A stretch of 64,000 bases of DNA, taken from assembly GCF_019024325.1 (NCBI RefSeq), contig NZ_JAFNJS010000001.1, positions 186,001 through 250,000 on the forward strand. Direction: 5' to 3'. The translations under genes were made by a program, and so were the position numbers. Every line of letters begins with the position of its first letter. Position 1 is the stretch's first letter. Shown here in pieces: positions 42,250-64,000 of this stretch. This DNA is from Falsiroseomonas tokyonensis (GTDB lineage: Bacteria > Pseudomonadota > Alphaproteobacteria > Acetobacterales > Acetobacteraceae). The notes beneath the pieces were generated by a model that searched no databases, was not told where the DNA came from, and saw only the letters and a program-made list of their open reading frames with translations.

Positions 42250-44358
42250 CTACCGCACCCGCAACTCCGCCCCCGCCGCCACCCCATCCGCATCCAGCAC
42301 CGTCACCCGATAGAAGCCGGGCCCCGGCGGCACCCAGGCGGCTTCGCGCCGGGCCCGCTGGTGCTCGATCGGCGCGCCATCCACAAGGAAGACCAGCGGC
42401 CGGCGCCCGCCGGCGGCGCGCAGCGTCACCGGCCCACCCTCCGCCAGCACCGCGCCCGGCATGGGAAACAGCAACCGCAACCGGTCCGCGGCTTCCCCAA
42501 AGGGGCGCGGCGTGGCGCGGACGGTCAGCGGCGCGCGGGGCGCGGCCGGCAGCCGGGCGAAGATCGCGGCCAGCGCCGGCAGGGCCGCGCCGCGGCCGGT
42601 CAGGCCGGGGATCGGCGTGCCATCCGGCCGGCCGACCCAGACCCCCGCCACATGCCGCGCATCCAGCCCCACAGCCCAGCCATCCCGCCCGCCCCAGGAG
42701 GTGCCGGTCTTCCAGGCGACGCCGGCCGGCCCGCCGCCCGGAAAAGGGTTCACCAATATGCCCGCCACCTCGGCCGCCGCGCGCGGCAGCACCACCTCCG
42801 GCCTCTCAGTGGGCGGCGTCGGCAGCGTCACCAGCGGCGCTGCGCGGCCGCCATCGCCGAGCAGCGCGTACAGCGCCACCAGCTCCCGCAACGTGGTCCC
42901 CGCGCCACCCAGCGCCAGCGGCAGCGAGGGCTCGGCCCCCGGTGCCAGGCGCGGCGGGCTGCCGGCCAGCTTCAGCGCGGTCGCATAGCGCAGCGCGCCG
43001 AACTCGCTCAGCAGCGCGACCGCCGGCAGGTTCAGCGATTGCCGCAGCGCATCCGCCGCGGTGATGCGGCCCACGAAGTCGCGCGAGAAATTCTCGGGCG
43101 CATAGCTGCCGAAACGGAAAGGCAGGTCCGCCACCAGCGTCTCGGGCCGCGCCACCCCGGCCTCGAAGGCCAGGGCATACAAAAAGGGCTTCTGGGCCGA
43201 GCCGGGGGAGCGGATGGCCCGGGTCAGGTCCAGCATGCCGGCGCGGGTCTCGACGCCAAAGCTGCCACCGACCAAAGCGCGGATCTCCCGCGACTGGGTC
43301 TCCGCCACCACCATGGCCATGGCGGCGTGGTCCGACAGCGCCAGCAGCCGGTCCTCGGTGAGCGCCTCCGCCGCCGCCTGCAGGTCGCGGTCCAGCGTGG
43401 TGGCGATGCGCGCGCCCGGCGCGGCGCCCTGGGCGAGCTGGCGGGCCAGGTGCGGCGCCAGGCGGGGCATGGGCTGGCGCGCGGTCGGCACCGGCGTCGC
43501 GAAGGCCAGGTCGCGCTCCGCCGCGCTGACCTGGCCGGCACCTGGGGCGCGCTGGCGCAGCAGGGCATCGCGCGCGGCGCGGGCGGCCATGGGATGGCGG
43601 TCCGGCCGCAACGCCTCCGGCCGCCTCGCAAGCGCCACCAGCAGCGCGGCTTCGGCGGCATCCAGCTGGCTCGGCGACCGGCCGAACCAGGCGAAGGCGC
43701 CGGCCCGAAGCCCCTCCAGGTTGCCGCCCTGCGGGGCCAGGGTCAGCCAGATGGCGAGGATTTCGTCCTTGGAGAAGCGCGCCTCCAGTTGCAGCGCGCG
43801 CAGGATTTCGACGAATTTGCTGCGCAGCGTGCGCGGGCGCGGCTCCAGCAGCCGGGCGGCCTGCATGGTGAGCGTCGAACCGCCGGAGACGACCCGCCCC
43901 GCGCGGATCCATTGGAAGGCGGCGCGGGACAGGGCCAGCGGGTCGACGCCGGGATGCCAGCGGAAGCGCGCATCCTCCGCGGCCAGCAGCATGGCGATGA
44001 GATGCTGCGGCAGGTCGGCGGGGGCGGTGGGCAGGCGCCAGATGCCGCCGGGGGCGGGCAGGGTGGAGAGGGTGCGGCCGTGGCGGTCCAGGACCTCGAT
44101 GCCGGGGTGGAGGCGGGCGAGATTGGGGGGGAAGGCGCGGTCGAGGGTGAAGAGGGTGGCGGCCAGTGCAGCGGCCGCGAAAACCAGGCGCCTCCCTCTC
44201 CACCCGGAGGGGGGGGGTTGCGGCACTGCCGCAACGCCGCAGGCTGGTCGGGGTGGGGGGGGCTGCGGGATGGCAAGGTCGCCCTCGCCGCCCAGAGCCC
44301 CCCCCACCCAACCCTCCCCCCCCGTTGGGGGGAGAGGGCTTTTCGGCTCCTTCCCCAT
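42250..44358 (-). CDS. pbpC: Penicillin-binding protein 1C
   Basis: This 702-residue bifunctional peptidoglycan synthase has a membrane helix (about 58-75), a GT51 glycosyltransferase domain with catalytic Glu in LLAAEDARFRWHPGVD and GGSTLTMQAARLLEP, and a transpeptidase domain with SPGSAQKPFLYALAF (SxxK), SLN and KTGTSWGGRDGW (KTG box). The last 90 residues form the PBP1C C-terminal domain. It follows the alpha-2-macroglobulin gene with TGATG overlap, the usual bacterial pairing. The first 50-60 residues are Pro/Gly-rich and are encoded by a GC-palindrome element normally seen between genes; an internal GTG at 44226 could be an alternative start. Confidence 0.9.
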   Translation of the reverse strand: MGKEPKSPLPPTGGEGWVGGALGGEGDLAIPQPPPPRPACGVAAVPQPPPSGWRGRRLVFAAAALAATLFTLDRAFPPNLARLHPGIEVLDRHGRTLSTLPAPGGIWRLPTAPADLPQHLIAMLLAAEDARFRWHPGVDPLALSRAAFQWIRAGRVVSGGSTLTMQAARLLEPRPRTLRSKFVEILRALQLEARFSKDEILAIWLTLAPQGGNLEGLRAGAFAWFGRSPSQLDAAEAALLVALARRPEALRPDRHPMAARAARDALLRQRAPGAGQVSAAERDLAFATPVPTARQPMPRLAPHLARQLAQGAAPGARIATTLDRDLQAAAEALTEDRLLALSDHAAMAMVVAETQSREIRALVGGSFGVETRAGMLDLTRAIRSPGSAQKPFLYALAFEAGVARPETLVADLPFRFGSYAPENFSRDFVGRITAADALRQSLNLPAVALLSEFGALRYATALKLAGSPPRLAPGAEPSLPLALGGAGTTLRELVALYALLGDGGRAAPLVTLPTPPTERPEVVLPRAAAEVAGILVNPFPGGGPAGVAWKTGTSWGGRDGWAVGLDARHVAGVWVGRPDGTPIPGLTGRGAALPALAAIFARLPAAPRAPLTVRATPRPFGEAADRLRLLFPMPGAVLAEGGPVTLRAAGGRRPLVFLVDGAPIEHQRARREAAWVPPGPGFYRVTVLDADGVAAGAELRVR
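44186..44342. repeat. Palindromic element(s) lying inside the pbpC 5' coding region
   Basis: GTTGCGGCA-C-TGCCGCAAC at 44217-44235 and its flank match, on the minus strand, the element at 29281-29341, with a compensated base pair. A second part at 44290-44338 (CCCTCCCCC...GGGGGGAGAGGG) matches the intergenic hairpin at 13538-13580. Both lie within the frame that codes for residues about 6-58 of PBP1C. Confidence 0.7.
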
Positions 44359-47300
44359 CACTCGCCCGGCAGCACCGTGACTCGCGCGACGTTCTGGCGC
44401 GCAAACACCCCCGGCCGGTACATGTCCTGCGCCTCCATCCCCGGCAGTTCGAAAGTCCCGGCCGTCACCGCGCGCACCCGCACGGCGAAGCGCGCCAGCG
44501 GATTGGCCGGCGTCAGTTCCAGCGCCGCGGCGTAGCGGTCGTCGCGCGCCGGCTGCGCCGCCGGCTCGGTCAGCGTGCCGAGCCAGGGCATGCCCTGCAC
44601 CTCGCCCGGCCCGAGCCGCCCGGCGATCTCCCAGCCCGCCGGCAGGCCCTGGATCACCATGGCGATGTGGCGCTCATTGCTCAGCGCGCGGGCCTCCATC
44701 AGCAGCACGAAGCCGGTGCCGGCGCGCAGCGTGTCGAGGTTCAGCGGCTGGCCGTCCAGCGCGAAGAAGCGCCGCGCCACCCGCATGCCCTGGCTGGCGG
44801 CCGGCAAAGGCGAGGTCGGCACGCCGGCGATCGAGACCGCCTGCACCACCGGCGCGTCGCCGCGGTTGCGCGCCTCGCCCGGCGCCGTCAGCGGCGCCGT
44901 CACCACGCCGGCCACCGGCAGGTCCCGCCCATCCAGCGTGATGCGCGCCGGGCGGCCGTCACGCCCGAGCACGAAGGCCGCCGCCACGGCCCAGGCCTGT
45001 TCCTGGGTATTGCTGACGGCGGGTGTGAATTCCGCCCCCGGCAGCCGGCCGAGCAGCGCCGGCAGCCGGTCCTGGGCCACGCCGGATTCGCGCAGCAGCA
45101 AGGCGGTGGCCAGCGCATCCCGCGCCGCGCTGCCGAAATCCTCGTACCAGACCTGCCGCGCCGGATTGGCCAGGGCCTCGGCGAAGATCGCCTCCGCCCG
45201 GTCCCGGTCCCCGGCGCGGGCGAAGGCGGCGGCCAGCTGCGCCTTGGCGAGCGGCGTCGGCAGCCGGTCCAGCTGCTCCGCCAGCCGCCGCGCCGCGCCC
45301 AGCCGGTTGCGCCCGGCCAGGGCCAGGACATGCACGCGATAGGCCTGCAGGGCGAAGAATTCGGGCGAATTGCCGCTCCCCTCCAGGTCGTCCTCCACCG
45401 CCTGCAGCGCCGTGTTCAGCGCCGCCTCCGGCACCGCCGCGCCATTGGTGCGCGCGCGCAAAAGGGCCTCGGTGGCGAACAGGCTGGCCCAGTCCTGCAC
45501 ATTGCCCTCGGCGCTCCAATAGCCGAAGCGGCCGTCATAGCGCTGACGGTCGAGCACGGAGGAAATCGCCCGGCCGAGCTGGGCCAAATCCTCCTGCGCC
45601 GTATCCGGATTGGAGGGCGCGTAGGACAGCGCCAGGACGCGGGAGCTGGCCTGTTCCACGCAATCCAGCGGGAAGCGGCGCAGCCCCGCCAGCAGCGCCT
45701 GCGGGTCGTAGCGCACTGGCGCGCCCCAGCTCGCCGAGGCGCGCCAGGTGCCGTCCAGGAAGCGGGAGGAAGGCAGCGCCACCGGTGCGGTCGCGCCCGG
45801 CGCCAGGGTGGTGATCGCCACCTCCGCCACTGCGGGGCGGGAGGAGCGGACGGCGATCGCCGCCTCCCGCTCCGTCCGGAAGCCGCCCGGGCCGGTGACC
45901 GCCAGGCGCAGCATCCCCTGCCCCACGGCGACGCCGCGCAGGCTGGTGGCGGGCGCGGCGCGGGCGCCGGTGGCCAGATTCGCCTCCAGCGTCGCCGGCC
46001 CCGCCAGGGCAATGGCGCCCGTGGCGGTCAGCGTGGCGCGGAATTCGCCCGGCGGCAGTTCGACATTGTGCAGCAGCAGCGGCAGCCGCACCTCGTCGCC
46101 TGGCGCCAGGAAGCGCGGCAGCAGCGCCTCCGCCACCGCCTGTTCGCGGATGGTCATGGGTTTCGCCGCGCTGCCGATGCGGGCGCCGTCCCAGGCCACC
46201 ACCATCAGCCGCACCTCGCCGGCGAAATCCGGCAGGTCCAGCGGGATGGTCGCGGTGCCGTCCGCGGCCACCGCCACCGGCCCCTGGAACAGCGCCACCA
46301 CGCGCTGCGGCACCTGCAGCCCCGCCCCGCCATCCATGCCGTCGCCACCCTGGCGCAGCAGCGCGGCCTCGCCCTCGGCGGGCGCGATCAGCCGGCCGTA
46401 GTCGTCACGGATATCGAGGCCCAGCCGCCGGCGCGCCAGGAAATGGGCCACCGGATCGGGCGAGGCGAAGCTGGTAATCCGCAGAATGCCCTCATCCACC
46501 GCCGCCAAAGTCACCATGGCGGTGGTGCCGGCGCCGGCGATGCGCAGCGGCACCTCGATGCGGGTCCGCGGGCGGGCCAGAGCTGGGCTGTCGATCGCCA
46601 CCTCCAGCCGCCGCGCCGCCGGATCCAGCCCGAGCCAGGCGAGGCCCAGCGCCCGGCCGGGCCGCCCCGCCCCAGCGCCCGGCCGGAAGACGGTGACTGC
46701 GACATGCGCGCCCGGGCCCCAGGCGGCGTCGATGGGCACCTCCACCTCCGTCCCGGCCTCCGGCACCTCGACCTCGCGCAGCGAGACCACGCGATCCGTC
46801 AGCACGGCGATGCTGGCGCGGCCGGCGAAGGGGGGCGTGATGCGCAGCCGGGCCGTATCGCCGGCGCCATAGGCGCGGCGGTCGGCGGCGACATCGACGC
46901 GATCCGGCACCTCGGCGGCTTCCGCCTGGGCCCAGCCGGCGCGGAAGCGGTAGCTGGCGATACCCAGGCCATTGGGCTCCGTCACTTCCAGCCGGTAGCG
47001 GCCGAAGGCCAGGGTGCGGGCGAAGCGCGCCGGCTGGCCGGGGGCGACCTGCACCTCCGCCGAATCCACCGGCTCGTCGCGCCAGACCGTCTCGTAGCGG
47101 GCCAGGCGTTCGCGCATCACGATCCGCCAGTCGGGGCGTTCCCGCACCAGCCGGACGCGCAGCGTGCCAGCGATGGCCTCGCCCGCCGGGTTCACCGCGG
47201 CGATGTCGAAGGCGGCCTCGGCGCCGTCATTCACCGCGCCGCCCTCGAAGGCCGGGCGGAGGGCCAGCAGCGTGCCGCGGGCGCGCACCGGCAGGGAGAG

Positions 47301-49466
47301 GCGCGTGCCGCTGGCCCGCCCGCCCGGCTCCGACATCAGGATCGAGACATCGGCGCGCAGCGGCCGGGTGGTGTCGGGCGCCTGCGGCAGGGAGAGAGTG
47401 AGCGTCGCCTTCCCTTCCGCATCCGTCTCCGGCACGTCGAAGGCCTGCAGGTCCGGCGTGAAGGTTTCGTCCTGCAGGCCGAAGCGCCAGCCGCGCCAGG
47501 CTTCGAAGGGCTCGGGGTCCACGGCCAGGCGCAATTCGGCGGTGCCGGTCAGGCCGGCGCCGGGCGCGCCGTAGAGGAAACGGGCGGTGACGGGGATCTC
47601 CATCTCCTGCCCCGGCACCAGCGCGCCGGGGGCGGGGCCGGCCGTCACCTCCAGCCGCTCCGGCACGAAGGCCTCGACGCGGAAGCTGGCGCTGCCGATG
47701 GGCGGCGCGTTCGGGTCGGCCAGCACCTCCACCGACCAGGCGCCGGCCGGCGCACTGGCGGAGAGCGTCACGGGCGCGACGAAGGCGGCGCCCTGCACCC
47801 GCTCCGGCACGCTTTCGAAAAACACCTGGCCATTCGGGCGCTTCACCCGCAGGCGCACCGGCAGGTCCACCGGCTGGCCGCCGCCATCGCGCAGCAGCGC
47901 GCCCACCTGCACCACCTCCCCGGGCCGATAGATGCCGCGGTCGAGCCAGAGGAAGGCATCCAGCGGCCCCGGATGCGGCCTGCCCTCCGCACCCCGATCG
48001 GTCAGGTCGAAGGCGGCGCTTTCCAGGTTGAGGGTGGCAAAATCCTCGCCCGAGAAGGCCTGCACCGCGACCGGCGCCAATTGCCCGGTGCCGCGCAACG
48101 CCGCGGCGTTGAAGCGCGCCAGGCCATCCGGGCCGGTCATGGCCTCGGCCAGGATGTCGTTGTTGCGGGCCAGCAGCACGGTGCGGACGCCGTCCCGCAC
48201 CCGGGCATCCGAGAAGCCGCGCACCTGCACCGCCAGGCCCTGCGCTCCGCGCCAGGCGGTGAGGCCGAGATCGGTCGCCAGCACGGCGAGCGAGGCGGAC
48301 TGGCCGCGCCGCGTGCCATCGCCCGGCTGCGCCACCAGCACATACATGCCGGGCCCGGCGCTGCGCAGCGCCTCCGGCAGCGGCAGCGCGCTGCGGGCCA
48401 GGCGATTGGGCTCGGACCGCGGCAATTCGGCGCGGCCTTCCCAGACCACGCGGCCGAGATCCTCGGAGAGGTTTTCGGCCATCCAGTCATCCATGGCGGT
48501 GCCGGGGCGCCAGTCGCGCATCAGCGGCACCAGGTTGCGCTCCGTCACCCGCACCAGCTTGAGGCTGAGCGCTGCGACATTCACGGTGGCCACCGTCACC
48601 CGCGGCTCCTGCCCCTGGGGCAGCAGGAAGGCGCGATTGTCGAAGGCGATGCGGGCCGGGCGGTTCGGCATGGCGATGCGGTAGGAGGTGTCGCGCAGCG
48701 CGCGCAGCCCGTCCTCCCCAGGCAGGCCGGCGCGGACAACCAGTTGCGTCACCTGCCCCCAGGGCAGGCCGGCGACGCAGAGCGAATCCCCTTCCCGCGT
48801 CACCGCCAGATCGGGCAGCGCGGGCTCCGCGCGCAGCCAGTCGCGCGGCTGCCAATCCGTGCGCCGCGCCGGCGGGGTGGTGAAGGCAAGGCAGGCGCGG
48901 GCGGGTTCGGCATCCGGCTCCGTCGTGATGCGGCGCACCAGCAGGCCGGCGGCGCGGCGGGCGGCGGCCAGGGCTTCGCGCTGCCGCGCATCGGCGGGCG
49001 CGCGTTCCACCACCGCTTCCAGCGCCTCGATCTGCCACATCGGCTGGTCCAGCCGGCGCATCGCCTCCGCCATCACCAGCAGGGAGGGGATCTCGGCCGC
49101 GCCGCCGGGCACCAGCATATAGGCGCGCCAGCCGGCCTGCAGGGCGCGCAGCGCCTCGGGCGGGGTGCGGGACAGCTGGGCATTGGCCAGCGCCATCCAA
49201 TGGTCGGCGGTGGCCTGGCCGGCGCCGATCCGCTCCTCCCAGGCCGCGGCGGCGGCGGCCCAGTCGCGCCGTGCCTCCGCCGCGCGGGCGCGGGTCTCGG
49301 CCTGGCTGCGCTGCTGCGGCGTGCCGCCGGCGGGGAAGCGGCGGTTCAGCGCATTCTCGTAGCTGGAGGAATCGTTGGCCAGCCCGGGCGGATCGAAGTT
49401 CTGGGCCGCGGCCGGCAGCAGCCAGGCCAGCACCAGCAGCAGGGGCAGCAAAAGGCGAAGCGTCAT
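44358..49466 (-). CDS. Alpha-2-macroglobulin family protein (YfhM-like)
   Basis: This 1702-residue periplasmic protein starts with a signal peptide ([22 protein letters not shown]) without a lipobox Cys, unlike E. coli YfhM. It has the bait/macroglobulin domains (for example [24 protein letters not shown]), and a thioester-domain CVEQ motif in [12 protein letters not shown] (about residue 1269) within an alpha/alpha toroid. Such proteins trap proteases covalently and are thought to guard the cell wall with PBP1C, whose gene overlaps its stop. ATG 49466 places the signal peptide correctly; longer in-frame starts are discarded. Confidence 0.9.
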
Positions 49467-49656
49467 GGTGGCTCCCGTGCGCGGCGTTTTCGGCAGCATG
49501 CCATGCCGCCCGCGCGGCGTGCAGCGTATCCGCGGCCAGCCCCGCGAAAAATGCCGCGGCGCTTGCGCGGCGACGTTCACGCTTTCGCAAGCCGTGGCGA
49601 GGCAGGGTGCGGCCACGGGTCCGCCCCGTCGGGCCGGCAGAAAAGGAAGCCGTCGC

Positions 49657-50649
49657 ATGAAGCGCGCGCGCAAACGCGTCCTGGTCACCGGCGGCGCCGG
49701 GTTCCTCGGCTCCCACCTGTGCGAGCGGCTGCTGGCGGAAGGCGAGGAGGTGATCTGCCTCGACAACTTCTTCACCGGCTCGCGCGACAATATCCGCCAC
49801 CTGCTGCCGCATCCGCATTTCGAGGTGATCCGCCACGACGTGACCCAGCCGATCCAGCTGGAGGTGGACGAGATCTACAACCTGGCCTGCCCGGCCTCCC
49901 CGGTGCATTACCAGCACAATCCGGTGCAGACGGTGCGGACTTCCGTGCACGGTGCGATCAACGTGCTGGAGCTGGCGAAGCGGCTCGGCGCGCGGATCTT
50001 CCAGGCCTCCACCTCGGAAGTCTATGGCGACCCCGCGGTGCATCCGCAGCCCGAAAGCTACCGCGGCAACGTCAATCCCATCGGCGTCCGCGCCTGCTAC
50101 GACGAGGGCAAGCGCTGCGCGGAGACGCTGTTCTTCGACTACCACCGGCAGGACGGCGTCGATATCCGCGTCGCGCGCATCTTCAACACCTACGGTCCGC
50201 GCATGCATCCGAATGACGGGCGCGTGGTCTCCAACTTCATCGTGCAGGCGCTGCAGAATGAGCCGATCACGCTGTATGGCGATGGCCGCCAGACGCGGTC
50301 CTTCTGCTATGTCGACGACCTGATCGAGGGTATCATCCTGCTGATGCGCGCGCCGGGCGGCGTCACTGGCCCGGTGAATATCGGCAATCCCAGCGAATTC
50401 ACCATCCGCGAACTGGCGGAGGAGGTGACGCGGCAGACCGCGTCCCGCGCCGGCTTCGTGATCCGCCCGCTGCCGCAGGACGACCCGATGCAACGCTGCC
50501 CCGATATCTCCCTGGCGCGCGCCCTGCTGGGCTGGCAGCCGCAGGTGCCGCTGGAGGCCGGGCTGCGCCGCACCATCGGCTATTTCGCGGAGACGCTGGG
50601 CCTGCGCATGCCGGAACCGGCGCTGCCGCGCGTGGTCGCCGCGCGCTGA
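49657..50649 (+). CDS. NAD-dependent epimerase/dehydratase, UDP-glucuronate decarboxylase (UXS)-like
   Basis: This 330-residue short-chain dehydrogenase-like protein has [19 protein letters not shown] (NAD binding), [18 protein letters not shown] (characteristic of UXS) and [18 protein letters not shown] holding the catalytic Tyr-x3-Lys. [18 protein letters not shown] and [16 protein letters not shown] are also UXS-like. It should make UDP-xylose from UDP-glucuronate. AGGA about nine bases before ATG 49657 fixes the start. The gene runs into the type I secretion genes 41 bases later and could supply a sugar donor for surface glycosylation. Confidence 0.88.
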
Positions 50650-54208: not shown

Positions 54209-56308
54209 TCAGCCGTGGACGACGGCCCTGCCGCTGGTGGCCGGATGCCGGCGGCGGCCGGATCCTGCCGCGGCAACCTGGCCCTGAATCAGGCACTCCA
54301 CCTCCTCGGCGCTGACGGGGGCGCTGTAGAAATAGCCCTGCAGCTCATGGCAGCCATTGCGCTGGGCCCATTCGGCCATCTCCAGCGTCTCGATCCCCTC
54401 CGCCACGATGGTGACCTGCATGAAGTTGCACATGGCGATCACCAGGCGGACGATCTCCTCGTTGCGCGGCAGCCCCTGCATCAGGCCGCGGTCGATCTTG
54501 ATGCAATCGACGGACATCTCGTTCAGCCGTGCGATGTTCGAATAGCCAGTGCCGAAATCGTCGATCGCAAGGCGGATGCCAAGCTCCCGGATCTTGGCCA
54601 GGTTGGCGCTCACCACCGGGTTGCTCTCGATCAGCAGCGTCTCCGTGATCTCGAGCTCGAGGCGCTTCGGGTCGCAGCCATGGTCTTCCAGCACGCGCTG
54701 CACCATGCCGGCGAAGTCCAGGTCGCAGAGCTGGCGCTGCGACACGTTGATGGAGACGGAGACATCGAGCCCCTGGCGCGCCCATTCGCAGCGCTGCCGC
54801 ACGGCCTGTTCCAGGATGGTCGCGCCGATCTGGTTGATCAGGCCGGACTTCTCCGAGATCGGGATGAATTCGGAAGGCAGGATCAGGCCGCGCTCCGGGT
54901 GGTTCCAGCGCGCCAGCGCCTCCACCGCGATGGCGCGCTGGGCGGTGGGCGAATAGCGCGGCTGGTAGTGGGGCAGGATATGGCCGCAGCGCAGCGCCTC
55001 CCGCAGGTCGGACAGCAGCTGCAACTCCTCCTCCCGCTGGTTGCGCATGCTTTCGTCGAACATGCGGTACTGGTTCCGGCCGCCGGCCTTGGCCTCGTAC
55101 ATCGCGAGGTCGGCGCGCTGCATCAGCAGCTGGGCATTGGTGCCGTGATGCGGGAAGCAGGCGATGCCCACGCTCGGCGTCACCATCAGCTTGCGGCGCT
55201 CCCCATGCACCGGCATGGCCAGCCGCTCCAGGATGCGCCTGGCCAGTATCTCGATGCGCCCGGCCTCCTCCGCGCCCTCCATCGCCAGGAACAGGAATTC
55301 GTCGCCGCCGAGGCGGATCACCGTATCCTCGCCCAGGCGCAGCTCCTGCAGCCGCCGCGCCACCTCCATCAGCACGCCGTCGCCATGCAGATGCCCCAGC
55401 GTGTCGTTGATGGCCTTGAACTGGTCGAGGTCGATGAACAGCACGCCGATGCGCGCGCCGCGCTGTTCCGCGCGGCGCACCATGGCGTTGAAGCGCGCGG
55501 GCATGGCCAGGCGGTTCGGCAGGCCGGTCAGCGGGTCGTGATGCGCGCGGCTCTGCGCCAGCGCCTCGGCCTCCTTCAGCTCCGTCACATCGGTTTCGCT
55601 GACCAGGATGGAGGGACGGCCGGAGACGGGGTCGTGGCAGGACCGCACGGTCAGCTCATGCCAGCGCAGGCCGGTGGCGGTCACCACCTCCGCGATCAGG
55701 CTCACCTCCGCCAGGCTGTGGATCTGCTCCATCATCCGCAGGTAGTCGCGCCGGTGCAGGAAGCGAGCGGGCAGGTCCTGCTGCGGCGAATCGAAGCTGG
55801 CCCGCGCCGCCGGGTTGCAATACAGCGTGCGGCCGTCCAGGTCGTGCAGCGAGATCATCAGCTTGGTGTGCAGCAGCGCATCGGCGCTGCGGATCGCCTC
55901 CGGCTGCATCCGCGCCTCGTCGCGGGCCTCGCAGAACATGGCCATGCGGCCGTCCTGCAGCTTCACGCCGCTGAGCCGCACCTCCAGCCGCCGCGGCACG
56001 CCGCGGGGATAGAGCGTCCACCTCTCGGTGAAGCTGGCATCGTAGCCGAGGAAATCCGTTTGGTACTGGCGCAGCCGTCGGGCCACCGCCGGGGACATGT
56101 CCGCCTTCAGGTTGCGGGCCGCCAGTTCCGCGAGCGATCCGGCATTCCAGACCTCCAGCGCCGCGGCATTGGCCCAGACCACGCGGCTATGGTCGACGTC
56201 GTAGATCCAGACCGCCGTGGTCAGCCGGTCCAGGATCCAGTCCCGGTCGGCGCCCGCATGGGAGGGCGCCGGCGGTGCCGGATCCCCGCCACTGTCCGGC
56301 CCCTCCAT
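54209..56308 (-). CDS. PAS-GGDEF-EAL cyclic-di-GMP signalling protein
   Basis: This 699-residue protein has two PAS-like domains (about 15-130 and 140-255), a GGDEF domain (DPLTGLPNRLAM, RLGGDEFLFL, about 265-430) and an EAL domain (VEALARWNHPERGLI, ELEITETLL, DDFGTGYSN, VAEGIETLE, about 440-685). The GGDEF signature and the main EAL metal and catalytic positions appear intact, so it could both make and degrade cyclic-di-GMP. No signal peptide or membrane segment was seen. Its ATG overlaps the stop of the GST gene (TGATG). Cyclic-di-GMP often controls secretion of adhesins, but a link to the neighbouring type I system is inference. Confidence 0.92.
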   Translation of the reverse strand: MEGPDSGGDPAPPAPSHAGADRDWILDRLTTAVWIYDVDHSRVVWANAAALEVWNAGSLAELAARNLKADMSPAVARRLRQYQTDFLGYDASFTERWTLYPRGVPRRLEVRLSGVKLQDGRMAMFCEARDEARMQPEAIRSADALLHTKLMISLHDLDGRTLYCNPAARASFDSPQQDLPARFLHRRDYLRMMEQIHSLAEVSLIAEVVTATGLRWHELTVRSCHDPVSGRPSILVSETDVTELKEAEALAQSRAHHDPLTGLPNRLAMPARFNAMVRRAEQRGARIGVLFIDLDQFKAINDTLGHLHGDGVLMEVARRLQELRLGEDTVIRLGGDEFLFLAMEGAEEAGRIEILARRILERLAMPVHGERRKLMVTPSVGIACFPHHGTNAQLLMQRADLAMYEAKAGGRNQYRMFDESMRNQREEELQLLSDLREALRCGHILPHYQPRYSPTAQRAIAVEALARWNHPERGLILPSEFIPISEKSGLINQIGATILEQAVRQRCEWARQGLDVSVSINVSQRQLCDLDFAGMVQRVLEDHGCDPKRLELEITETLLIESNPVVSANLAKIRELGIRLAIDDFGTGYSNIARLNEMSVDCIKIDRGLMQGLPRNEEIVRLVIAMCNFMQVTIVAEGIETLEMAEWAQRNGCHELQGYFYSAPVSAEEVECLIQGQVAAAGSGRRRHPATSGRAVVHG

Positions 56309-56958
56309 CAATCGGCTCCCGCCTTGCAGGCGAAGGGGATGGCCGCTTCGCCCATGGCGGACAGCGGCACGAAGCCCGGCGTCTGCTGCACCCGGTGGAT
56401 CCAGGACCGGATGGCGGGAAAGGGCCGCATGTCGATCTCGGCCTCCTCCGCCACATGGACATAGCCGAAGATGGCGATGTCGGTGATGCCGTAGCAATCG
56501 CCGAGCATGACGTCCCGCCCGCGCAGATGCGCCTCCAGCAGCGCGAGGCCGGCAGCGCCGCGCGCGCGCCAGGCGGCCATCTCCGCCTCCCGCCCCCGCC
56601 CGCGTTCCGGGACCAGGCGTCCGAAGAAGCGGGCTGGCGAGATATGCGGCTCCAGCTTCATCTGTTCGAAGAACATCCATTGCAGGCTCTGCGCGCGGGC
56701 CAGCGCATCCTGCGGCATCAGGCCCGAACCCTCGCCGACCGGCCAGAGCATGGCATTCGACCCACTGAGGCCCGTGCCATCCGCCGTCACCAGGAGGGGC
56801 ACGCCGCCCACCGGTTTCAGCGCCAGGAAGCGCGGCGCCCGCGCCTCCCCCGCCAGCACATCCACCGAGATCATCCGCATGCCGAGGCCGAGTTGGCGCA
56901 GCGCCAGGAAGGGCTTGAAGCAATTGCCGGGGCCTGGGGTTGCGTACAAGGTATACAA
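56308..56958 (-). CDS. Glutathione S-transferase family protein
   Basis: This 216-residue protein has an N-terminal thioredoxin-like domain (MYTLYATPGPGNCFKPFLALRQ, with GGVPLLV as the cis-Pro glutathione site and a Ser-rich LSGSNAML) and a C-terminal helical domain (ITDIAIFGYVHVAEEAEIDM) typical of bacterial GSTs. The catalytic residue may be Ser/Cys near residues 11-13. Substrate unknown. It is transcribed with the cyclic-di-GMP gene. Confidence 0.85.
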   Translation of the reverse strand: MYTLYATPGPGNCFKPFLALRQLGLGMRMISVDVLAGEARAPRFLALKPVGGVPLLVTADGTGLSGSNAMLWPVGEGSGLMPQDALARAQSLQWMFFEQMKLEPHISPARFFGRLVPERGRGREAEMAAWRARGAAGLALLEAHLRGRDVMLGDCYGITDIAIFGYVHVAEEAEIDMRPFPAIRSWIHRVQQTPGFVPLSAMGEAAIPFACKAGAD

Positions 56959-57088: not shown

Positions 57089-57817
57089 TCAGGCGGCCAG
57101 TGGCAGGGAAGGCTGCGCCTGACGCCGCGGCTTGCGCAGCACGCTGACGAAATAGCCGTTGTGCCAGTCGCTGTCCTTGAAGGCGATTTCCGGATGGGTA
57201 TTGTCCAGCGTGGTGCGGATCTCCGCGCCATAGAGCAGCTGCAGCCCGCCCTGGACGATGGCGCGATGCGTGCCGGCGCGCACGGGCCACCAGTTCCAGT
57301 CGTCGCAGATGAAGACGAATTCCTCGGCCAGCGCCGGCAGCGCGGCGATCAGCCCGTCATGCTGGTCCTGTTCCTCATGCGGCCCGTCGAAGAGATAGAC
57401 CTCGAAGGGCGCATGACGCGTGGCGAGATCGGCGAAGGGCACGGCCCGAAAGTCCGCCTCGATCACCTCCACCGCCGCGGCCTCCGTCCGGAACTGCGCG
57501 AGATTGCCAAGGAAGGCGTCGCGCGGGCCGCCGAACTGGCTCCAATTGTCGATCGCCACCGCCTGCACCGCATTGCCGTGGATGGCGCTGCACAGCGTCG
57601 ATCCCATCCAGCTGCCGACCTCGAGGTAGCCGGTGCGGCCCAGCCGGCGCAGCAGCCCGTTGATGAAGTGGCGGTAGCGCGCGCCGGACATGCCGTCGAT
57701 CGCGTAGATGCCCTGGGCGCGGTCGATCGGGGCCGCCAGGGCCTCCGACAGGGCCAGGCGCAGCGGCGCCACATGGCGGGCCTCCGGCTCGATGAGGATT
57801 TCGCTGAGATGGGTCAT
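57089..57817 (-). CDS. Class I SAM-dependent methyltransferase-like protein
   Basis: This 242-residue protein has a Rossmann-type start of the SAM domain at YLEVGSWMGSTLCSAI (about residues 60-76) and then AVAIDNWSQFGG, EVIEADFRAV and YLFDGPHEEQDQHDGL, where the acidic DGPH loop resembles the Methyltransf_24 group that methylates sugars or other hydroxyls. ATG 57817 is preferred because GGAG lies nine bases upstream. It lies between a GST and glycosyltransferases, so a glycan or lipid target is possible. Confidence 0.7.
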   Translation of the reverse strand: MTHLSEILIEPEARHVAPLRLALSEALAAPIDRAQGIYAIDGMSGARYRHFINGLLRRLGRTGYLEVGSWMGSTLCSAIHGNAVQAVAIDNWSQFGGPRDAFLGNLAQFRTEAAAVEVIEADFRAVPFADLATRHAPFEVYLFDGPHEEQDQHDGLIAALPALAEEFVFICDDWNWWPVRAGTHRAIVQGGLQLLYGAEIRTTLDNTHPEIAFKDSDWHNGYFVSVLRKPRRQAQPSLPLAA

Positions 57818-57951
57818 CGGGCTTTTCTCCGGATGCGGTGCGTCCGCCATCTGACCCGCTTTGCCTGAACGGAGCATGAAGGCCGGCATCTCCAGACTTG
57901 ATTCATCCTTTCTCGCCAGACTGCGCCCGCACCGCCCGGAAAAGCCGCAGC

Positions 57952-58575
57952 ATGGACAGCCATTCCCAAAGCGAGATCGGACTCACGGTTGAGGCGCCCC
58001 TCGGGGTCCAGCCCCTGCGGCATGTGCTGCATGTCGGCTGCGGCGCCGCCGCGCCGGACAAGCTGCCGGCGCATTTCTTTCCCGCCGGACAGTGGCAGGA
58101 GATCCGGCTGGATATCGACCCGGATGTGGCGCCCGATGTGCTCGCCTCCATCACCGACATGGCCGTGGTGCCGGATGCCAGCGTCGATGCCATCTGGTCC
58201 TCGCACAATCTGGAGCACCTGTTTCCGCATGAGGTGCCGCTGGCGCTGGCCGAATTCCGCCGTGTGCTGAAGCCCGGCGGCTTCGCGCTGATGACCATGC
58301 CGGACCTGCAGCAGATCGCTCGCCTGGTGGCGGAGGACCGGCTGACGGATGCCGCCTATCTCTCGCCCATGGGTCCGATCACGCCGCTCGACATGCTCTA
58401 TGGCCATGGCGGGTCGCTGGCGCGGGGCAATGTCTTCATGGGCCATCGCGGCGGCTTCACCGCGCGGTCGCTGGAGATGGCGTTGATCGGGGCCGGCTTT
58501 CCCATCGTGCGCGTGGTGCGCGACGACAGTTTTGCCCTTTGGGCCACGGCCTATATGGGCGGCGCGACGGGCTGA
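57952..58575 (+). CDS. Class I SAM-dependent methyltransferase (Methyltransf_11-like)
   Basis: This 207-residue protein has SAM motif I in VLHVGCGAAAPDKLP (about 25-40), an acidic motif IRLDIDPDVAPDVLASITDM, and VDAIWSSHNLEHLFPHEVPLALAEFRRVLKPGGFALMTMPD, the usual order of the ubiE-like fold. It starts 135 bases after the divergent methyltransferase gene. The target is unknown. Convergent stop codons leave 19 bases to the next gene. Confidence 0.85.
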   Translation: MDSHSQSEIGLTVEAPLGVQPLRHVLHVGCGAAAPDKLPAHFFPAGQWQEIRLDIDPDVAPDVLASITDMAVVPDASVDAIWSSHNLEHLFPHEVPLALAEFRRVLKPGGFALMTMPDLQQIARLVAEDRLTDAAYLSPMGPITPLDMLYGHGGSLARGNVFMGHRGGFTARSLEMALIGAGFPIVRVVRDDSFALWATAYMGGATG

Positions 58576-58594: not shown

Positions 58595-60448
58595 CTACAG
58601 CAGGCTTTCGAGCGCCGCTTCCAGCCGCCGCGTGAAGCCGGCGGAATCGCCCAGCGTGCGCATCCAGGCATCGCCCGCCAGCACCTGCCGCGCCGCGGCC
58701 AGCCGGGCCGGATCGGTGGCCAGGGCGATGGCACGGGCGACGTAATCCTCCCGCGTCTCCGTGATGCCATCCGTCAGGCCGATCGCGGTCAGCAGGCTGC
58801 AGGCCATGCGCGCGGCGAAGGCGGTGCCGGCCAGCGTCAGCAGCGGCAGGCCCATGCGCAGCGCGTCGCTCGCCACCGTGCCGGAGTTGTAGGGCGTGGT
58901 GTCGAGGAACAGGTCGGCCAGCCGCATCCGCGCGAGATACCGCGCCGGCTCCACCCGCGGGCCGAGCACCAGCCGTTCCGGCGCCAGGCCCGCCTCGGCG
59001 AAGCGCGCGCGCAGCTGCACGCTGCCGCCATGCCCATCCTCCGGCAGCCAGAGCACGGAGCCCGGCACGGCGTGGAGGATGCGCGTCCAGTCCGCGAAGA
59101 CCTCCTGCGTGATCTTGTAGAAATTGGCGAAGCAGCAGAAGACGAAGGCGTCTTCCGGCAGCCCCTCCTCCGCCCGCGTCAGGCTGGGCAGGTCCGGCAT
59201 GCGGCTGTCATTCGCCTGGTAGAGCCCCTCGATCGCCAGCGGCTTCGGCGCATAGAGATGCGCGCGATCCGGTGGCACGGCGATGGCGTCGCACAGAAGA
59301 AAATCCAGCTCGGGCAGCGGCACGCTGCCGATATAGCCGAGATAGGTGCCCTGCAGCGGCGCCGGCTTCCAGCGCAGCGTGCCCATCCGCGCACCGCGCG
59401 TCAGGCCGTTCAGGTCGATCAGGATGTCGATCTCATCGGCGCGGATGCGCCGTGCCGCCGCCTCGTCATCCATCGCGCCAATGCGCACGTGATGATCCAG
59501 CGCCGCGATGACGCGCGCGCGGATCTCGCTGCCATCCTCCGGCGAGGAGCAATAGCCGAAGATCTCGAAGCGCGTGCGGTCGTGGCGCTCCAGCACCTCT
59601 GCGATCAGGAAGCTCATCGCATGGCGGCAGAAGTCGGAGGAGAGGTAGCCGATGCGGATGCGGTCGTGGCGATAGAACTGGGCCGGCGCCAGGCGCTGCG
59701 GCGCGGCGGGCACCTTGCGCTCCAGCCAGGTGGCGACGATGCGGCGCTGCAGGTCAACATCGTCGAACAGCGCGAGCGCGCCGAGCGGCCCCGCATGCAG
59801 CTGCGCCTGTTCTGCCGAAAGGCCCGGTATATCGCCCGCATGAATCGGCCACAGGCACAGCTTCTGCCGCAGATGCGTCCAGTGCTGCAGCACATCGGGC
59901 TGCGCCGGGTCGCTGGTCAGGCTGGCGCGCAGCGCCTGCTCGGCCTCCGCGAAGCGGCCCGCCTGTTCCAGCAGGCGGCCGCGCTGGTTCAGCAGGTTCC
60001 GGCGCACCGGCTCGGGCTGCAGCGCCTGCTGCCAGGTGGCCAGCGCGGCCTCCACCTGGCCGGCCGATTCCAGCGCCAGGCCCAGGTTGATCGCCGCCTC
60101 GTGGAAATCCGGCTTCAGCGCCAGGGCATTGCGGTAGCAGGTCACGGCGTGCGCCGGGTCGCCGGTCTGCACCAGCTCAACGCCCAGGTTGAACCAGGCC
60201 GCCATGGCCTGCGGATGGCCCGGATTGGCGGCGAGCCAGGCCTGGTAGACGGCGATGGTGACGCCGCGGCGCCCCTCGCGGCTGGCCTGTTCCAGCAGCG
60301 GCAGCAGCCCTTCCAGCCGGATGGCGCGCAGGCCCCGCTGGCGCCGCGCCTCCTCCGCCGGCGGCAGCAAGGCGGGCCAGCTGGGGCCGGCGATCAGCCC
60401 GGCGAGCCAGCCGATATCCAGCGTGTCGGAGGGCACCAGCGCGTTCAT
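58595..60448 (-). CDS. TPR-containing GT41-like glycosyltransferase (SPINDLY/OGT-related), variant copy
   Basis: This 617-residue protein has N-terminal TPR-like repeats (about 50-190: AAWFNLGVELVQTGDPAHAV, AAINLGLALESAGQVEAALA) and a C-terminal GT41 domain: RIRIGYLSSDFCRHAMSFLI, DILIDLNGLTRGAR, FCCFANFYKITQEVFADW and FLDTTPYNSGTVASDALRMG. The family transfers GlcNAc or other sugars to Ser/Thr. Compared with its neighbour the usual NGHTRGAR reads NGLTRGAR, and the HTT donor-phosphate motif reads GTV (about residue 522), so donor use or activity may be altered. Its ATG overlaps the stop of the second copy (ATGA). Confidence 0.85.
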   Translation of the reverse strand: MNALVPSDTLDIGWLAGLIAGPSWPALLPPAEEARRQRGLRAIRLEGLLPLLEQASREGRRGVTIAVYQAWLAANPGHPQAMAAWFNLGVELVQTGDPAHAVTCYRNALALKPDFHEAAINLGLALESAGQVEAALATWQQALQPEPVRRNLLNQRGRLLEQAGRFAEAEQALRASLTSDPAQPDVLQHWTHLRQKLCLWPIHAGDIPGLSAEQAQLHAGPLGALALFDDVDLQRRIVATWLERKVPAAPQRLAPAQFYRHDRIRIGYLSSDFCRHAMSFLIAEVLERHDRTRFEIFGYCSSPEDGSEIRARVIAALDHHVRIGAMDDEAAARRIRADEIDILIDLNGLTRGARMGTLRWKPAPLQGTYLGYIGSVPLPELDFLLCDAIAVPPDRAHLYAPKPLAIEGLYQANDSRMPDLPSLTRAEEGLPEDAFVFCCFANFYKITQEVFADWTRILHAVPGSVLWLPEDGHGGSVQLRARFAEAGLAPERLVLGPRVEPARYLARMRLADLFLDTTPYNSGTVASDALRMGLPLLTLAGTAFAARMACSLLTAIGLTDGITETREDYVARAIALATDPARLAAARQVLAGDAWMRTLGDSAGFTRRLEAALESLL

Positions 60449-62406
60449 GGCGGGCTCCACAGGCGCCCATCGGGCGGCAGCTTCTGGAAGGCGTGGCGGC
60501 GCGCGAGCCTTTGCTGCCAGCGGGCCTCGTAATCCGGCAGGGTGCCGGTCTCCTGCGCCTCATGATCCTCGGCGGCGCCGAGATCCAGGTAGGTGTCGAG
60601 ATTCGAGAGGTCGGGCCGCGGCAGGCGCCCTTCGCGAAAATCCTGCCACATGCCGTCGAAGGCCTGCTCGATGTGCCGCACGAAGTTCTGCGTGTCGTAG
60701 AGCAGGGAGGTTTCCCGGAAGGCCAGCAGGCGCGGGCGATAGGCGCGCAGCCGCGCCGGGTCCTGGCCCAGCGCGATGGCCTGGGCGACGTAATCGGCTG
60801 GCGTGTCGCAGACCAGTTCCGGCACGCCGGCGGCGCGCACCAGGCTGGCACAGACGCGACTCGCAAAACCGCGGCCCGGCAGGGTCAGCACCGGCGTGCC
60901 CATCCACAGCGCGTCGGAGGCGGTGGTATGCGCGCCGTAGGGCGCCGTATCCAGGAACAGGTCGGCGGCGGCATAGCGCGCGACATGATCGGCATTGCCG
61001 GCCATCGGCGCAAAGATCAGCCGCGCGGGATCGATGCCCGCCGCCTGCGCGCGCTCGCGCAGCTTCACATCCACGGCGTCGCTGGATTTCAGCAGCCAGA
61101 GCACGCTGCCCGGCACGCCGCGCAGCACCTGCATCCAGCGATCGAAGCCGAAGGGCGTGATTTTCTGGGTACCATTGAAGCTGCAGAAGACCACCGCGTC
61201 TTCCGGCAGGCCGAGCGCGGCGCGCGTAGGCACCGCGCCAACGGTGCGATGCCTGTCATTCGGCTGGTAGCAGGGCAGCCGCCGCACTGCCTCGGAGTAG
61301 TAGCGCTCGCTGCCCGCGGGGATGATGACCTCGTCGCCCAAAATATAATGGTGATAGGGCGTGCCCATGGTGCCGGCATAGCCGAGCCAGTTGACGATGA
61401 CGGGCGCTGGCCGGCGGGAGAGCAGCCTGGTGCGCGCGCCACGGGTATGGCCGTTGATGTCCACCAGGATGTCGATGCCATCCGCCAGCATGCGCGCCAG
61501 CGCCGCGTCGTCGTCCATCGGCGTGATGTCGCACCAATGCTCCACGCTGCCGCGGATGCGCGCCTTCACCGCATCCTCCTGCGGGATGCCGCAGTAGTAG
61601 ACGAAGACCTCGTAGCGGTCGCGATCGTGCAGCCGGTACATGTCGGCCGTCAGGTGCCCGATGGCATGGGAGCGCAGATCGGAGGAGAGGTAGCCGATGC
61701 GCAGCCGGGGCGAGGGCGGCCGTGCGGCGAAGTCCGCATCGGTCCGGAAATCCGCCGGCACGCCGAACTCGGCGCGGCTGTAGGATGCGGCCAAAGCGAG
61801 CGCCAGCATCGGGTCGTCGGTATGGGTCACCAGGCTGAGCGGCGCCATGCCGCGCAGCAGCGCCGGGCGGTCCAGCGCGCCGACCGGTTCCAGCAGCGGC
61901 CAGGCGCATTGCCGCTGGCGCAGGCTGATCCAGTGCTGCACCACGTCACGCTGGGTCGGCGCGATCTCGATGATCTGGCGCAGATGCTCCTCGGCCTGCG
62001 CATGGCGCTGCACGGATTCCAGCACGCGGGCGATGTGCTTCAGCGCGGTGGTCTTGTAGGCCAGGCTGTCGCCGGACACCGCGGCCAGCGTCGCCGTCGC
62101 ATGCGCCCAATGGCTGATCGCGGGCTCCGTCGCGCCCAGCCTTTCATAGACCACGCCGAGATTGATGAAGGGCGGCAGGAAGGTGGCGTTGCGCTTGATC
62201 GCTTCGCCAAAGGCCGCCGCGGCGCCGGCGAGATCGTCGAGGCCCGAGAGCAGCACGCCGTAGTTGAAATAGACCGCATGGCCCAGCGGGTCCGAAGGGT
62301 GGCGGGCCAGCCAGTCCCGGTACAGCGCCGCGGCCTGCGGCGCCTGGCCCGCGCTGGCCATCTGCTGCGCCGTGCCGAAGAGGTCGGCAACGTTCTCGAT
62401 CTGCAT
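60445..62406 (-). CDS. TPR-containing GT41-like glycosyltransferase (SPINDLY/OGT-related)
   Basis: This 653-residue protein has TPR-like helices (about 10-190) and a complete GT41 domain: RLRIGYLSSDLRSHAIGHLT with catalytic-region His, DILVDINGHTRGAR, VNWLGYAGTMGTPYHHYI, VFCSFNGTQKITPFGFDRW (with the Lys that binds the nucleotide sugar) and FLDTAPYGAHTTASDALWMG with HTT at about 493-495. This is the O-GlcNAc transferase/SPINDLY layout, also used by bacterial flagellin glycosyltransferases. ATG 62406 is used. It is divergent from the Thr-rich repeat protein, a likely substrate by context. Confidence 0.9.
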   Translation of the reverse strand: MQIENVADLFGTAQQMASAGQAPQAAALYRDWLARHPSDPLGHAVYFNYGVLLSGLDDLAGAAAAFGEAIKRNATFLPPFINLGVVYERLGATEPAISHWAHATATLAAVSGDSLAYKTTALKHIARVLESVQRHAQAEEHLRQIIEIAPTQRDVVQHWISLRQRQCAWPLLEPVGALDRPALLRGMAPLSLVTHTDDPMLALALAASYSRAEFGVPADFRTDADFAARPPSPRLRIGYLSSDLRSHAIGHLTADMYRLHDRDRYEVFVYYCGIPQEDAVKARIRGSVEHWCDITPMDDDAALARMLADGIDILVDINGHTRGARTRLLSRRPAPVIVNWLGYAGTMGTPYHHYILGDEVIIPAGSERYYSEAVRRLPCYQPNDRHRTVGAVPTRAALGLPEDAVVFCSFNGTQKITPFGFDRWMQVLRGVPGSVLWLLKSSDAVDVKLRERAQAAGIDPARLIFAPMAGNADHVARYAAADLFLDTAPYGAHTTASDALWMGTPVLTLPGRGFASRVCASLVRAAGVPELVCDTPADYVAQAIALGQDPARLRAYRPRLLAFRETSLLYDTQNFVRHIEQAFDGMWQDFREGRLPRPDLSNLDTYLDLGAAEDHEAQETGTLPDYEARWQQRLARRHAFQKLPPDGRLWSPP

Positions 62407-62651
62407 GCTTCCATCCTGGCGCGCGTGCCGCGGGCGCGCAGCATGGCGGCGCTTGGTGAAGAAGCGGTGAACGCCCCGGGCGCAGGATTTCGGCTGGCCG
62501 CATGGCTGCGATTCATCGGGCGTCAAGGGTTCCTCCCTAGTCTCGCCGCACGCCGGGACGACAGAATGTCCACCCCGCCCCTACTGCGCCGCCTGACTCG
62601 GGATCGCTGGTTCCTGGCGCGGTTCATCATGCCCAGCCGGGAGACATGGCG
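62407..62651. other. Divergent intergenic region between GT41 genes and repeat protein
   Basis: This 245-base region should hold promoters for both directions. No gene was found. GGGAG at 62639-62643 serves as ribosome site for ATG 62652. I saw no clear -35/-10 pair. Confidence 0.5.
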
Positions 62652-64000
62652 ATGGCGCTGTTCGATGCCCTGACGACGACCCAGATCGGCCAGCTGACGA
62701 CGACGACCATCGCCGCGCTGACCACCACCGAGGTCCGCTCGCTGGCGACGACTCAGATTGCCGCCCTGACCACGACACAGGTCACCGCCCTGGCCTCCAC
62801 CCATCTCGGCGCGCTGCACAGCACGCAGGCGGCGGCGCTGGAGACGACGGATCTCGCGGTGCTCGGCACGGCGCAAATCCGCGGCCTGGTCTCCACGCAG
62901 CTGACCGCGCTGAGCACGACGCAGCTGGGCGCCATCACCACGACGCAGATCGGCGCCCTCACCTCCACCCAGGCCAGCGTGCTGACCACCACCCAGGTGG
63001 CGGCGCTGACCACCACGCAGATCGGCGGGCTCGGCACCACCCAGGTGACGGGCCTGAGTTCGCAGCAGCTGGCGGCGCTGACCACCACCCAGGTGGGCGC
63101 GCTGACCTCGACCCAGCTGGGCGCTATCGGCGTCACCAAGATCCGCGGGCTGGAGACGACGGACCTCGCCGCGCTGACCACGACGCAGATCGCGGGCCTG
63201 ACGACGGCGCAGCTGGCGGGCCTCACCGCCACCCAGGCGGCGGCGCTGGAGACCACGGACCTGGTGGCGCTCACCACCACGCAGCTGCGCGGCCTGGCCA
63301 GCACCCAGCTCGCCGCGCTGACCACCACCCAGGCGGCGGCGCTCACCACCACGCAGCTCACCTCGCTGACCACCACCCAGATGGCGTCGCTGACCACGAC
63401 GCAGATGGCGGCGCTGACCACCACGCAGGTCGCGGCACTCGGCACCACGCAGGTGGGCGGGCTGACCTCGGCCCAGATCGGCGCGCTGAGCACGACGCAG
63501 GTGGGCGTGCTGACCTCCACCCAGATCGGCGCCATCGCCACCGGCCAGATCCGCGGCATCGAGACGACGGACCTGGCCGCGCTGACCACCACCCAGGTCG
63601 CGGGCCTGACGGCGACGCAGCTCGGCGCGCTGAGCGCGACGCAGATCGTGGCGCTGGAGACCACGGACCTGGCCGCGCTGACCACGACGCAGCTGCGCGG
63701 CCTGACCACCACGCAGATGGCGGCGCTGACCACGACGCAGGCCGCGGCGCTGACCACCACGCAGATCGGCGCGCTGGCCAATACGCAGGTGGCGGGGCTG
63801 AGCTCGCTGCAGCTGCCGGTGCTGACCACGACGCAGATCGGCGCCCTGACCTCGACCCAGATCGGCAGCATCAGCAGCATCGCGCTGCGCGGCATGGAGA
63901 CGACGGATCTCGCCGCGCTGACCACCACCCAGGTGGCGGGCCTGACGGCGACGCAGATCGGCGCGCTCACCACCACCCAGGCGGTGGCGCTGGAGACGAC
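62652..64000 (+). CDS. Thr-rich octapeptide-repeat protein, open at the window end
   Basis: The frame runs from ATG 62652 (MALFDALTTTQIGQL) without a stop to base 64000, at least 449 codons. From residue 4 it consists only of eight-residue, 24-base repeats with consensus [LIVA]-x-x-L-[TS]-T-T-Q; 55 full copies are visible. Variants recur in order: xxxLETTD at repeats 8, 25, 42 and 56, and (I/L)RG(L/I/M)ETTD at 21, 38 and 52, giving a 17-repeat (408-base) super-period, once shortened to 14. No signal peptide, Cys or aromatic residues occur in the array. TTxQ fits a helix N-cap, so short helices are possible, but the fold is unknown. GGGAG eight bases upstream selects this ATG over 62646. A surface or secreted role is inferred. 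Confidence 0.85.
   Translation, partial: MALFDALTTTQIGQLTTTTIAALTTTEVRSLATTQIAALTTTQVTALASTHLGALHSTQAAALETTDLAVLGTAQIRGLVSTQLTALSTTQLGAITTTQIGALTSTQASVLTTTQVAALTTTQIGGLGTTQVTGLSSQQLAALTTTQVGALTSTQLGAIGVTKIRGLETTDLAALTTTQIAGLTTAQLAGLTATQAAALETTDLVALTTTQLRGLASTQLAALTTTQAAALTTTQLTSLTTTQMASLTTTQMAALTTTQVAALGTTQVGGLTSAQIGALSTTQVGVLTSTQIGAIATGQIRGIETTDLAALTTTQVAGLTATQLGALSATQIVALETTDLAALTTTQLRGLTTTQMAALTTTQAAALTTTQIGALANTQVAGLSSLQLPVLTTTQIGALTSTQIGSISSIALRGMETTDLAALTTTQVAGLTATQIGALTTTQAVALET

Follow-up and report, generated by a model that had tools for sequence, protein, structure and literature searches.

The locus studied here raises the question of what a bacterium makes from a gene composed almost entirely of one threonine-rich octapeptide, and with which of its neighbours the product works. 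The window, by which we mean the whole 64,000-base stretch analysed (C1:186001-250000 of the 6.16-Mb draft genome G000), holds the first part of this gene at its right-hand end. Open reading frame analysis, profile matching and repeat parsing place the gene for a PF20080 (ALTTAQ) array protein on the plus strand at 62646..64000 in the window, from where it runs on to 69305 in contig terms. The frame opens with an ATG at 62646 and enters its first repeat at 62670.

An octapeptide array of the PF20080 family

The array protein is 2,219 amino acids long; after a leader of 8 residues come 276 octapeptides, and a further three residues close the chain. All 276 units are exactly 8 residues long, with zero phase slips. 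Position 1 of the octapeptide is taken by Leu, Ile, Met or Phe, Thr/Ser prevail at positions 2-4, position 5 is Gln (225 units) or Asp (33 units), and position 6 is mainly Leu, Ile or Val; the whole protein contains 626 Thr, 114 Ser, one Lys and one Pro, with no Cys and no Tyr. At the DNA level, Tandem Repeats Finder recovered a 24-base period over 62893-63992, and the long minus-strand ORFs that cross the array we take to be shadows of the repeat. A sequence-only reading of the window had described a giant in-frame octapeptide array without length slip, reaching the window edge without a stop and carrying ETTD at a fixed phase, all of which was upheld by the parsing of the units and by the end of the frame in the contig. 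The C-terminal domain that it expected downstream did not appear, the protein being repeat up to its last three residues. No Sec signal was noticed when the array protein was judged by eye. A terminal motif, F-T-x-x-Q-x-x-x-M, considered here as a possible export signal, is found in 28 of the 69 arrays whose stop is present, 20 of these 28 being accompanied by a GT41 gene.

The array is real and chance is excluded, because it scores 1546 bits against the Pfam family PF20080, "ALTTAQ repeat", and has relatives in 75 loci. The match falls in 69 stretches and exceeds the curated cut-off of 26.4 bits. The same repeat thus described by Pfam occurs in the window's array and, by similarity search, in the 75 loci; PF20080 itself is a curated repeat with no function described in the literature searched, and no paper in the literature searched names 'ALTTAQ' or 'PF20080'. 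The earlier statement that the repeat belongs to no characterised family stands as regards function and fails as regards the profile, for a known domain profile, the finding against which that statement had been hedged, does cover the array. Its expectation of similar repeats in related genomes, among them those of Acetobacteraceae, was confirmed by the relatives found. Beyond PF20080 itself, the present analysis adds a higher-order unit, a period common to many arrays and a partnership with GT41; no description of the partnership or of a shared period was met in the literature searched. The array protein had no NCBIfam match at E 1. Its other Pfam matches, some of them above cut-off (LRR_EndoS, 64.8 bits; CAAP1, 38.4 bits), and its matches to leucine-rich-repeat structures in the PDB (up to 3e-6) we take to be effects of the Leu/Thr-rich repeat.

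Giant arrays of this family with GT41 partners are spread over Alpha- and Betaproteobacteria, plus single genomes or MAGs from other groups. A survey of 190 genomes from the class met PF20080 in 4 of them and GT41 in 72, so that GT41 alone is no predictor of an array. The genome studied here encodes two further PF20080 proteins. One is a 1247-amino-acid array (L031:9818-13561, on contig C23) that is more diverged and Thr-poorer and has no adjoining GT41; arrays like it, of 1164-1289 amino acids (stop to stop) and with similar C-termini, are present in G001, G003, G005, G007 and G201. The other is a 429-amino-acid DUF1217 protein in a flagellar cluster (L032:9890-11179, on contig C58), in which DUF1217 is matched in two stretches with an ALTTAQ block inside, and into which the repeat seems to have been inserted. 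Hits of a DUF1217 query on arrays were discarded as meaningless, the query itself having contained repeat residues. Eight arrays from Duganella/Rugamonas (L084, L089, L094, L106, L107, L109, L123 and L124), 3250-4953 amino acids long (stop to stop), carry after their repeats a tail of other sequence whose last residues are W-F-x-V-P-[NK]-R, unlike the alphaproteobacterial arrays.

Higher-order repeat, common period and predicted fold

Along the whole array, ETT-bearing units are spaced 13, 4, 13, 4, 10 and 4 octapeptides, five times over, plus a final 13. The spacing of 17, 17 and 14 repeats between ETTD variants, as first noticed from sequence, agrees with these unit positions; because it recurs five times, the higher-order unit is 48 octapeptides, or 1152 bases, and 17 + 17 + 14 is one period. 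DNA identity within the array is 0.82 at a lag of 48 octapeptides, 0.74 at lag 17 and 0.64 at lag 1. Growth through duplication of blocks, as proposed earlier, is borne out; the 'one loss of three repeats' proposed with it is ruled out, since the 17, 17, 14 pattern recurs and is a stable 48-unit repeat, found also in the sister species. The array of that species (G001) has 324 octapeptides against 276 here, an excess of exactly one 48-unit block. Amino-acid identity is 0.78-0.93 among the four 48-unit copies of the window's array, 0.80-0.91 among the five of G001 and 0.74-0.84 when copies are compared between the two; as copies are more alike within an array than between species, the blocks appear to have been amplified partly separately in the two species. 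An assembly artefact is unlikely, given that the 48-unit copies of the window's array differ to the extent just stated, that the longest exact run at lag 48 is 135 bases and that the sister species shares the order. The arrays of G003, G007 and G201 are broken at contig ends, and copy numbers in drafts are unsure.

A shorter period is common to many arrays. Octapeptide autocorrelation, with periods searched from 2.05 to 12, was applied to 64 arrays, namely the window's and those of 63 of the 75 loci, all with at least 85 units in one phase and Gln in at least 40% of units at position 5. The best period lay between 3.37 and 3.48 octapeptides in 52 of the 64 (median of those 52, 3.425), and period strength was above that of all of 40 shuffles in 48 of the 64; an earlier version of the analysis, under another phase rule, gave 49 of 68 arrays. 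The mean autocorrelation peaks at lags 4, 7, 10, 14, 17, 24, 27, 31, 34, 38, 41, 44 and 48, none of them more than 0.2 away from a multiple of 3.43; lags 20 and 28 are positive as well, at lower values, and the mean profile of lags 1-9 alone has a period of 3.47. Periodograms of ETTD only gave no clear answer, 12 of 24 arrays falling in the band; for the window's array the best period by this measure was 4.36, a harmonic of 48, with R 0.82 vs 0.79 at 24/7.

We read the 3.43 octapeptides, or 27.4 residues, as the probable length of one superhelical turn, judging from the period of the sequence. The gene would then gain and lose whole higher-order units, of 48 octapeptides in this case, whose lengths tend to near-whole superhelical turns, and whole-turn units would keep special octapeptides such as ETTD facing the same way. 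The higher-order units might instead record recombination history alone, early 7- and 10-unit similarities having been copied and then summed by unequal crossing-over with no structural turn involved. Such a history would suit the observations that large lags are sums of small ones and that copies are more similar within species than between. In an independent-lag test, 14 of 16 dominant lags fell near multiples of 3.415, which was equalled by 1 of 20,000 random sets; limited to those seven dominant lags which cannot be obtained by adding others, the test found no fit to a period beyond chance (p 0.24), again as recombination alone would have it. Against this stand the single narrow period seen in 52 of 64 arrays from many genera whose dominant lags differ (24, 17, 48, 34 and others) and the recurrence of the period in the averaged lags 1-9, which are shorter than most of the dominant lags, and we hold an origin in recombination alone to be unlikely.

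The array is predicted to fold as a long helical screw. Given 34 octapeptides and a 38-sequence alignment, AlphaFold returned a model (pLDDT 92.6, pTM 0.79) in which each octapeptide forms roughly one short helix and strands are absent; for 451 residues without an alignment the best model was likewise helical (pLDDT 87, the other four models 31-61). The T-x-x-Q of the octapeptide resembles a helix N-cap. Among solved structures the nearest in sequence is PDB 9zem, "HeliScrew4" (E 9.2e-16, 61 bits, 112 residues aligned gap-free), a 120-amino-acid chain of octapeptides of the same kind (LTPEQIAA-like) and, to judge by its name, perhaps a designed protein; it matches the array by sequence only and is absent from the fold-search matches, an absence that excludes nothing. 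Fold searches with the array model gave weak matches only, to mesothelin and armadillo solenoids, the first Foldseek match being mesothelin (E 4e-4, TM-score 0.31, rmsd about 11 Å). Mesothelin is a right-handed spiral of short helices, 24 of them in nine layers (PMC10035497). It is like the predicted array in being a short-helix spiral, and differs in having about 2.7 helices per layer vs the 3.4 inferred for the array. A beta-solenoid with an ice-binding or ice-nucleating role could be suspected from the Thr-rich tandem repeats, a feature also of bacterial ice nucleation proteins; both array models are helical without strands and the unit has 8 residues, not 16. These two properties rule out a beta-solenoid ice nucleation protein, with its strand coils and 16-residue repeats, and leave an ice-related solenoid of any kind barely credible.

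GT41 neighbours and a candidate export locus

Beside the array lie two genes for TPR proteins with a Glyco_transf_41 domain (PF13844), both on the minus strand: GT41a (60445..62526, 281.7 bits), which is divergent from the array and whose listed ORF begins at a TTG, the true start probably lying further in, and GT41b (58595..60460, 225.5 bits), which overlaps GT41a by 16 bases. Both exceed the curated cut-off for Glyco_transf_41 (25 bits), both carry TPR families, and they are the only GT41 genes of the genome. The sequence-only reading of the array made no mention of them or of the secretion genes described below. H287, K455 and D538 (GT41a numbering) are conserved in 56 of 56 aligned GT41 sequences; they correspond to active-site residues of GT41 enzymes, a His (H218 in XcOGT), a Lys and an Asp. 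The remaining positions of the site are less constant, H533 being present in 36 of the 56, and GT41b keeps the H, K and D, with Gly and Val at the sites of GT41a H533 and T535. The two enzymes match OGT structures better than SPINDLY, which hints that the donor may be a UDP-sugar.

This neighbourhood is conserved. In a sample of 75 array loci drawn from one query, with the best 80 of 100 relatives kept, and hence favouring arrays like the window's, GT41 was present in the available flanks of 44 loci and within 500 bases in 40; flanks are often cut by contig ends or long arrays, and gene distances are those between stop-to-stop frames. Where at least 2.5 kb of flank was available on both sides, the count was 31 of 43 loci. 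The nearest GT41 lies on the same strand, downstream and within 300 bases of the array in 35 of the 44 loci. A search in which the two window enzymes served as queries (E below 1e-10), and by which remote GT41 could be missed, found none in the available flanks of the other 31 loci, 12 of which have at least 2.5 kb on both sides. In a clustering of all neighbours, GT41 formed the largest cluster (44 loci), followed by frames overlapping GT41 genes (32 and 15), ABC (12) and HlyD (9); several further clusters spanned 8 loci each, including synteny among Duganella/Rugamonas and a group of sugar-nucleotide epimerases. Scaled roughly from the two GT41 in the 6.16 Mb of this genome, about 0.3 would be expected in 815 kb of flank, where 56 were found.

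Among 15 genomes of the genus, GT41 matches above 100 bits, a line set after the scores had been seen, occurred in G000, G001, G003, G005, G007, G010, G201 and G203, which are exactly the genomes with a GT41-side giant array; in all eight, GT41 adjoins the array within one contig, and these counts take no account of shared ancestry. The other seven had no GT41 match above 100 bits (best, 88 bits), and some GT41 is present in 14 of the 15. At least four loci (L050, L051, L052 and L120) are apparently also counted among these 15 genomes. In G051 the array and the GT41 genes are far apart, and G152 has a PF20080 protein without GT41. Six genomes (G000, G001, G003, G005, G007 and G201) carry a GT41-linked and an unlinked array side by side, with Ser/Thr contents per octapeptide of 2.51-2.79 in the linked and 1.41-1.70 in the unlinked ones. 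When all loci are pooled, the difference is small and not significant (2.38 in 44 linked arrays vs 2.22 in 12 unlinked arrays with full flanks, p = 0.12), and the GT41-linked array of G010 is Thr-poor, with 1.82 Ser/Thr per octapeptide.

About 8 kb upstream of the array the window encodes a type I secretion-like ABC transporter (PF00664 and PF00005; 50691..52847, plus strand) and a HlyD-type membrane fusion protein (PF13437; 52766..54205, plus strand), which we propose as parts of the exporter; HlyD genes are found beside arrays elsewhere too. ABC and HlyD genes occur together near the array in 9 of the 75 loci, within available flanks, and all nine have GT41; in six of the loci (L053, L054, L058, L059, L064 and L073) the order on one strand is ABC-HlyD-array-GT41. 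A UDP-glucuronate decarboxylase-like gene (49375..50649, plus strand) ends 41 bases before the ABC gene. It scores 417 bits against the solved UDP-glucuronate decarboxylase 1, with homology from near residue 94, and could possibly make a UDP-xylose donor, its membership of the system being a guess; as the genome has two paralogues elsewhere, the link to the array is a lead only. Members at 72% identity or more to the decarboxylase of L057 are present in 6 of the 75 loci (L057 included), four of them with GT41, and two more are remote (25-31%).

Several other genes of these loci were recorded. A GGDEF-EAL protein is encoded at 54209-56923 (minus strand) between the ABC/HlyD pair and the GT41 genes, and control of export or adhesion by c-di-GMP through it is conceivable. 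Two small methyltransferase-fold genes lie between exporter and GT41, at 57089-57889 (minus strand) and 57898-58575 (plus strand), the second having relatives in array loci L054, L055, L058, L059 and L063. A 1810-residue frame at 44358-49790 (minus strand) resembles, by eye, bacterial alpha-2-macroglobulin, and at L009:16587-19961 (minus strand) a large TPR protein has a C-terminal part that by eye is like the cellulose-synthase outer-membrane protein BcsC.

A proposed glycosylated helical rod and its alternatives

On balance we favour the view that the array is a helical-screw rod rich in Thr, to which GT41a and GT41b attach O-linked sugars in the cytosol and which leaves the cell through a type I system. 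Each octapeptide (L-T-T-T-Q-x-x-x) would form one short alpha-helix started by its Thr residues, and the units would join in a continuous superhelical rod. The two TPR/GT41 enzymes would hold the array and add O-linked sugars to its Thr/Ser stretches in the cytosol, after which the ABC/HlyD system would export the glycosylated chain. Outside, the chain may form a long glycosylated fibre of the surface or matrix, with adhesion or aggregation the most likely use.

Parts of this scheme have precedents. In Haemophilus influenzae, the large exoprotein HMW1 is glycosylated in the cytoplasm by the GT41 enzyme HMW1C, encoded next to it; HMW1C, in which an AAD domain takes the place of TPR repeats, modifies Asn, and HMW1 leaves by two-partner secretion (PMC3983070). 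The array system would work alike, a large protein gene again adjoining a GT41 gene, and on this description it differs in its TPR/GT41 enzymes, its likely Thr/Ser acceptors and its ABC/HlyD exporter; GT41a and GT41b both carry TPR repeats, and we do not assign them to the HMW1/HMW1C two-partner system. The serine-rich repeat proteins of Gram-positive bacteria are reported to be adhesins with Ser/Thr-rich repeats that are O-glycosylated before export (PMC6973325); they use an accessory Sec system, and their family, repeats and enzymes are other than those of the array system.

The GT41 proteins could also act as TPR-binding chaperones, or on some other target, with the array exported as an unglycosylated structural rod. 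A chaperone action has been considered for HMW1C too (PMC3983070), and neither the non-significant Ser/Thr contrast over all loci nor the GT41 neighbours of the Thr-poor array of G010 would be surprising if no sugar were added. Against this stand the active-site residues, retained in 56 of 56 sequences, and the within-genome Ser/Thr contrast, present in 6 of 6 genomes; we regard the chaperone explanation as having a minor share of the probability. Smaller still is the chance that the array belongs to the flagellar apparatus and that the GT41 proteins are flagellin-type glycosyltransferases adjoining it by chance. TPR/GT41 enzymes acting on flagellin are known, such as Caulobacter FlmG. The ALTTAQ repeats inside a DUF1217 protein of this genome's flagellar cluster point in that direction, as do the weaker GT41 found about 3 kb from a short PF20080 ORF (447-450 amino acids) in G009 and G202. 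The giant arrays, however, share no common flagellar cluster, a flagellin query matched 1 of the 75 loci (L096), and within the genus the GT41 beside giant arrays score above 100 bits and all others at most 88.

We propose tentatively, with rather less than even confidence, that the PF20080 giants and GT41 together make up a widespread class of bacterial mucin-like helical-screw glycoproteins, whose genes copy whole-turn blocks (10, 17, 24, 31 or 48 octapeptides, near multiples of 3.43), in which case the gene would reveal how the protein twists before a structure is available. With a decarboxylase gene just ahead of the exporter genes, xylose is a possible candidate for the sugar. PF20080, for which the literature searched describes no role, would gain a testable one. 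Bacterial TPR/GT41 enzymes, the targets of which are often unknown, would gain in the array a candidate for a dedicated substrate, a single polypeptide offering them hundreds of acceptor sites. Being self-capping and accompanied by enzymes that decorate it, such an octapeptide rod could serve as a scaffold, and the arrays may be a rare case in which the twist of a protein sets the higher-order repeat of its gene.
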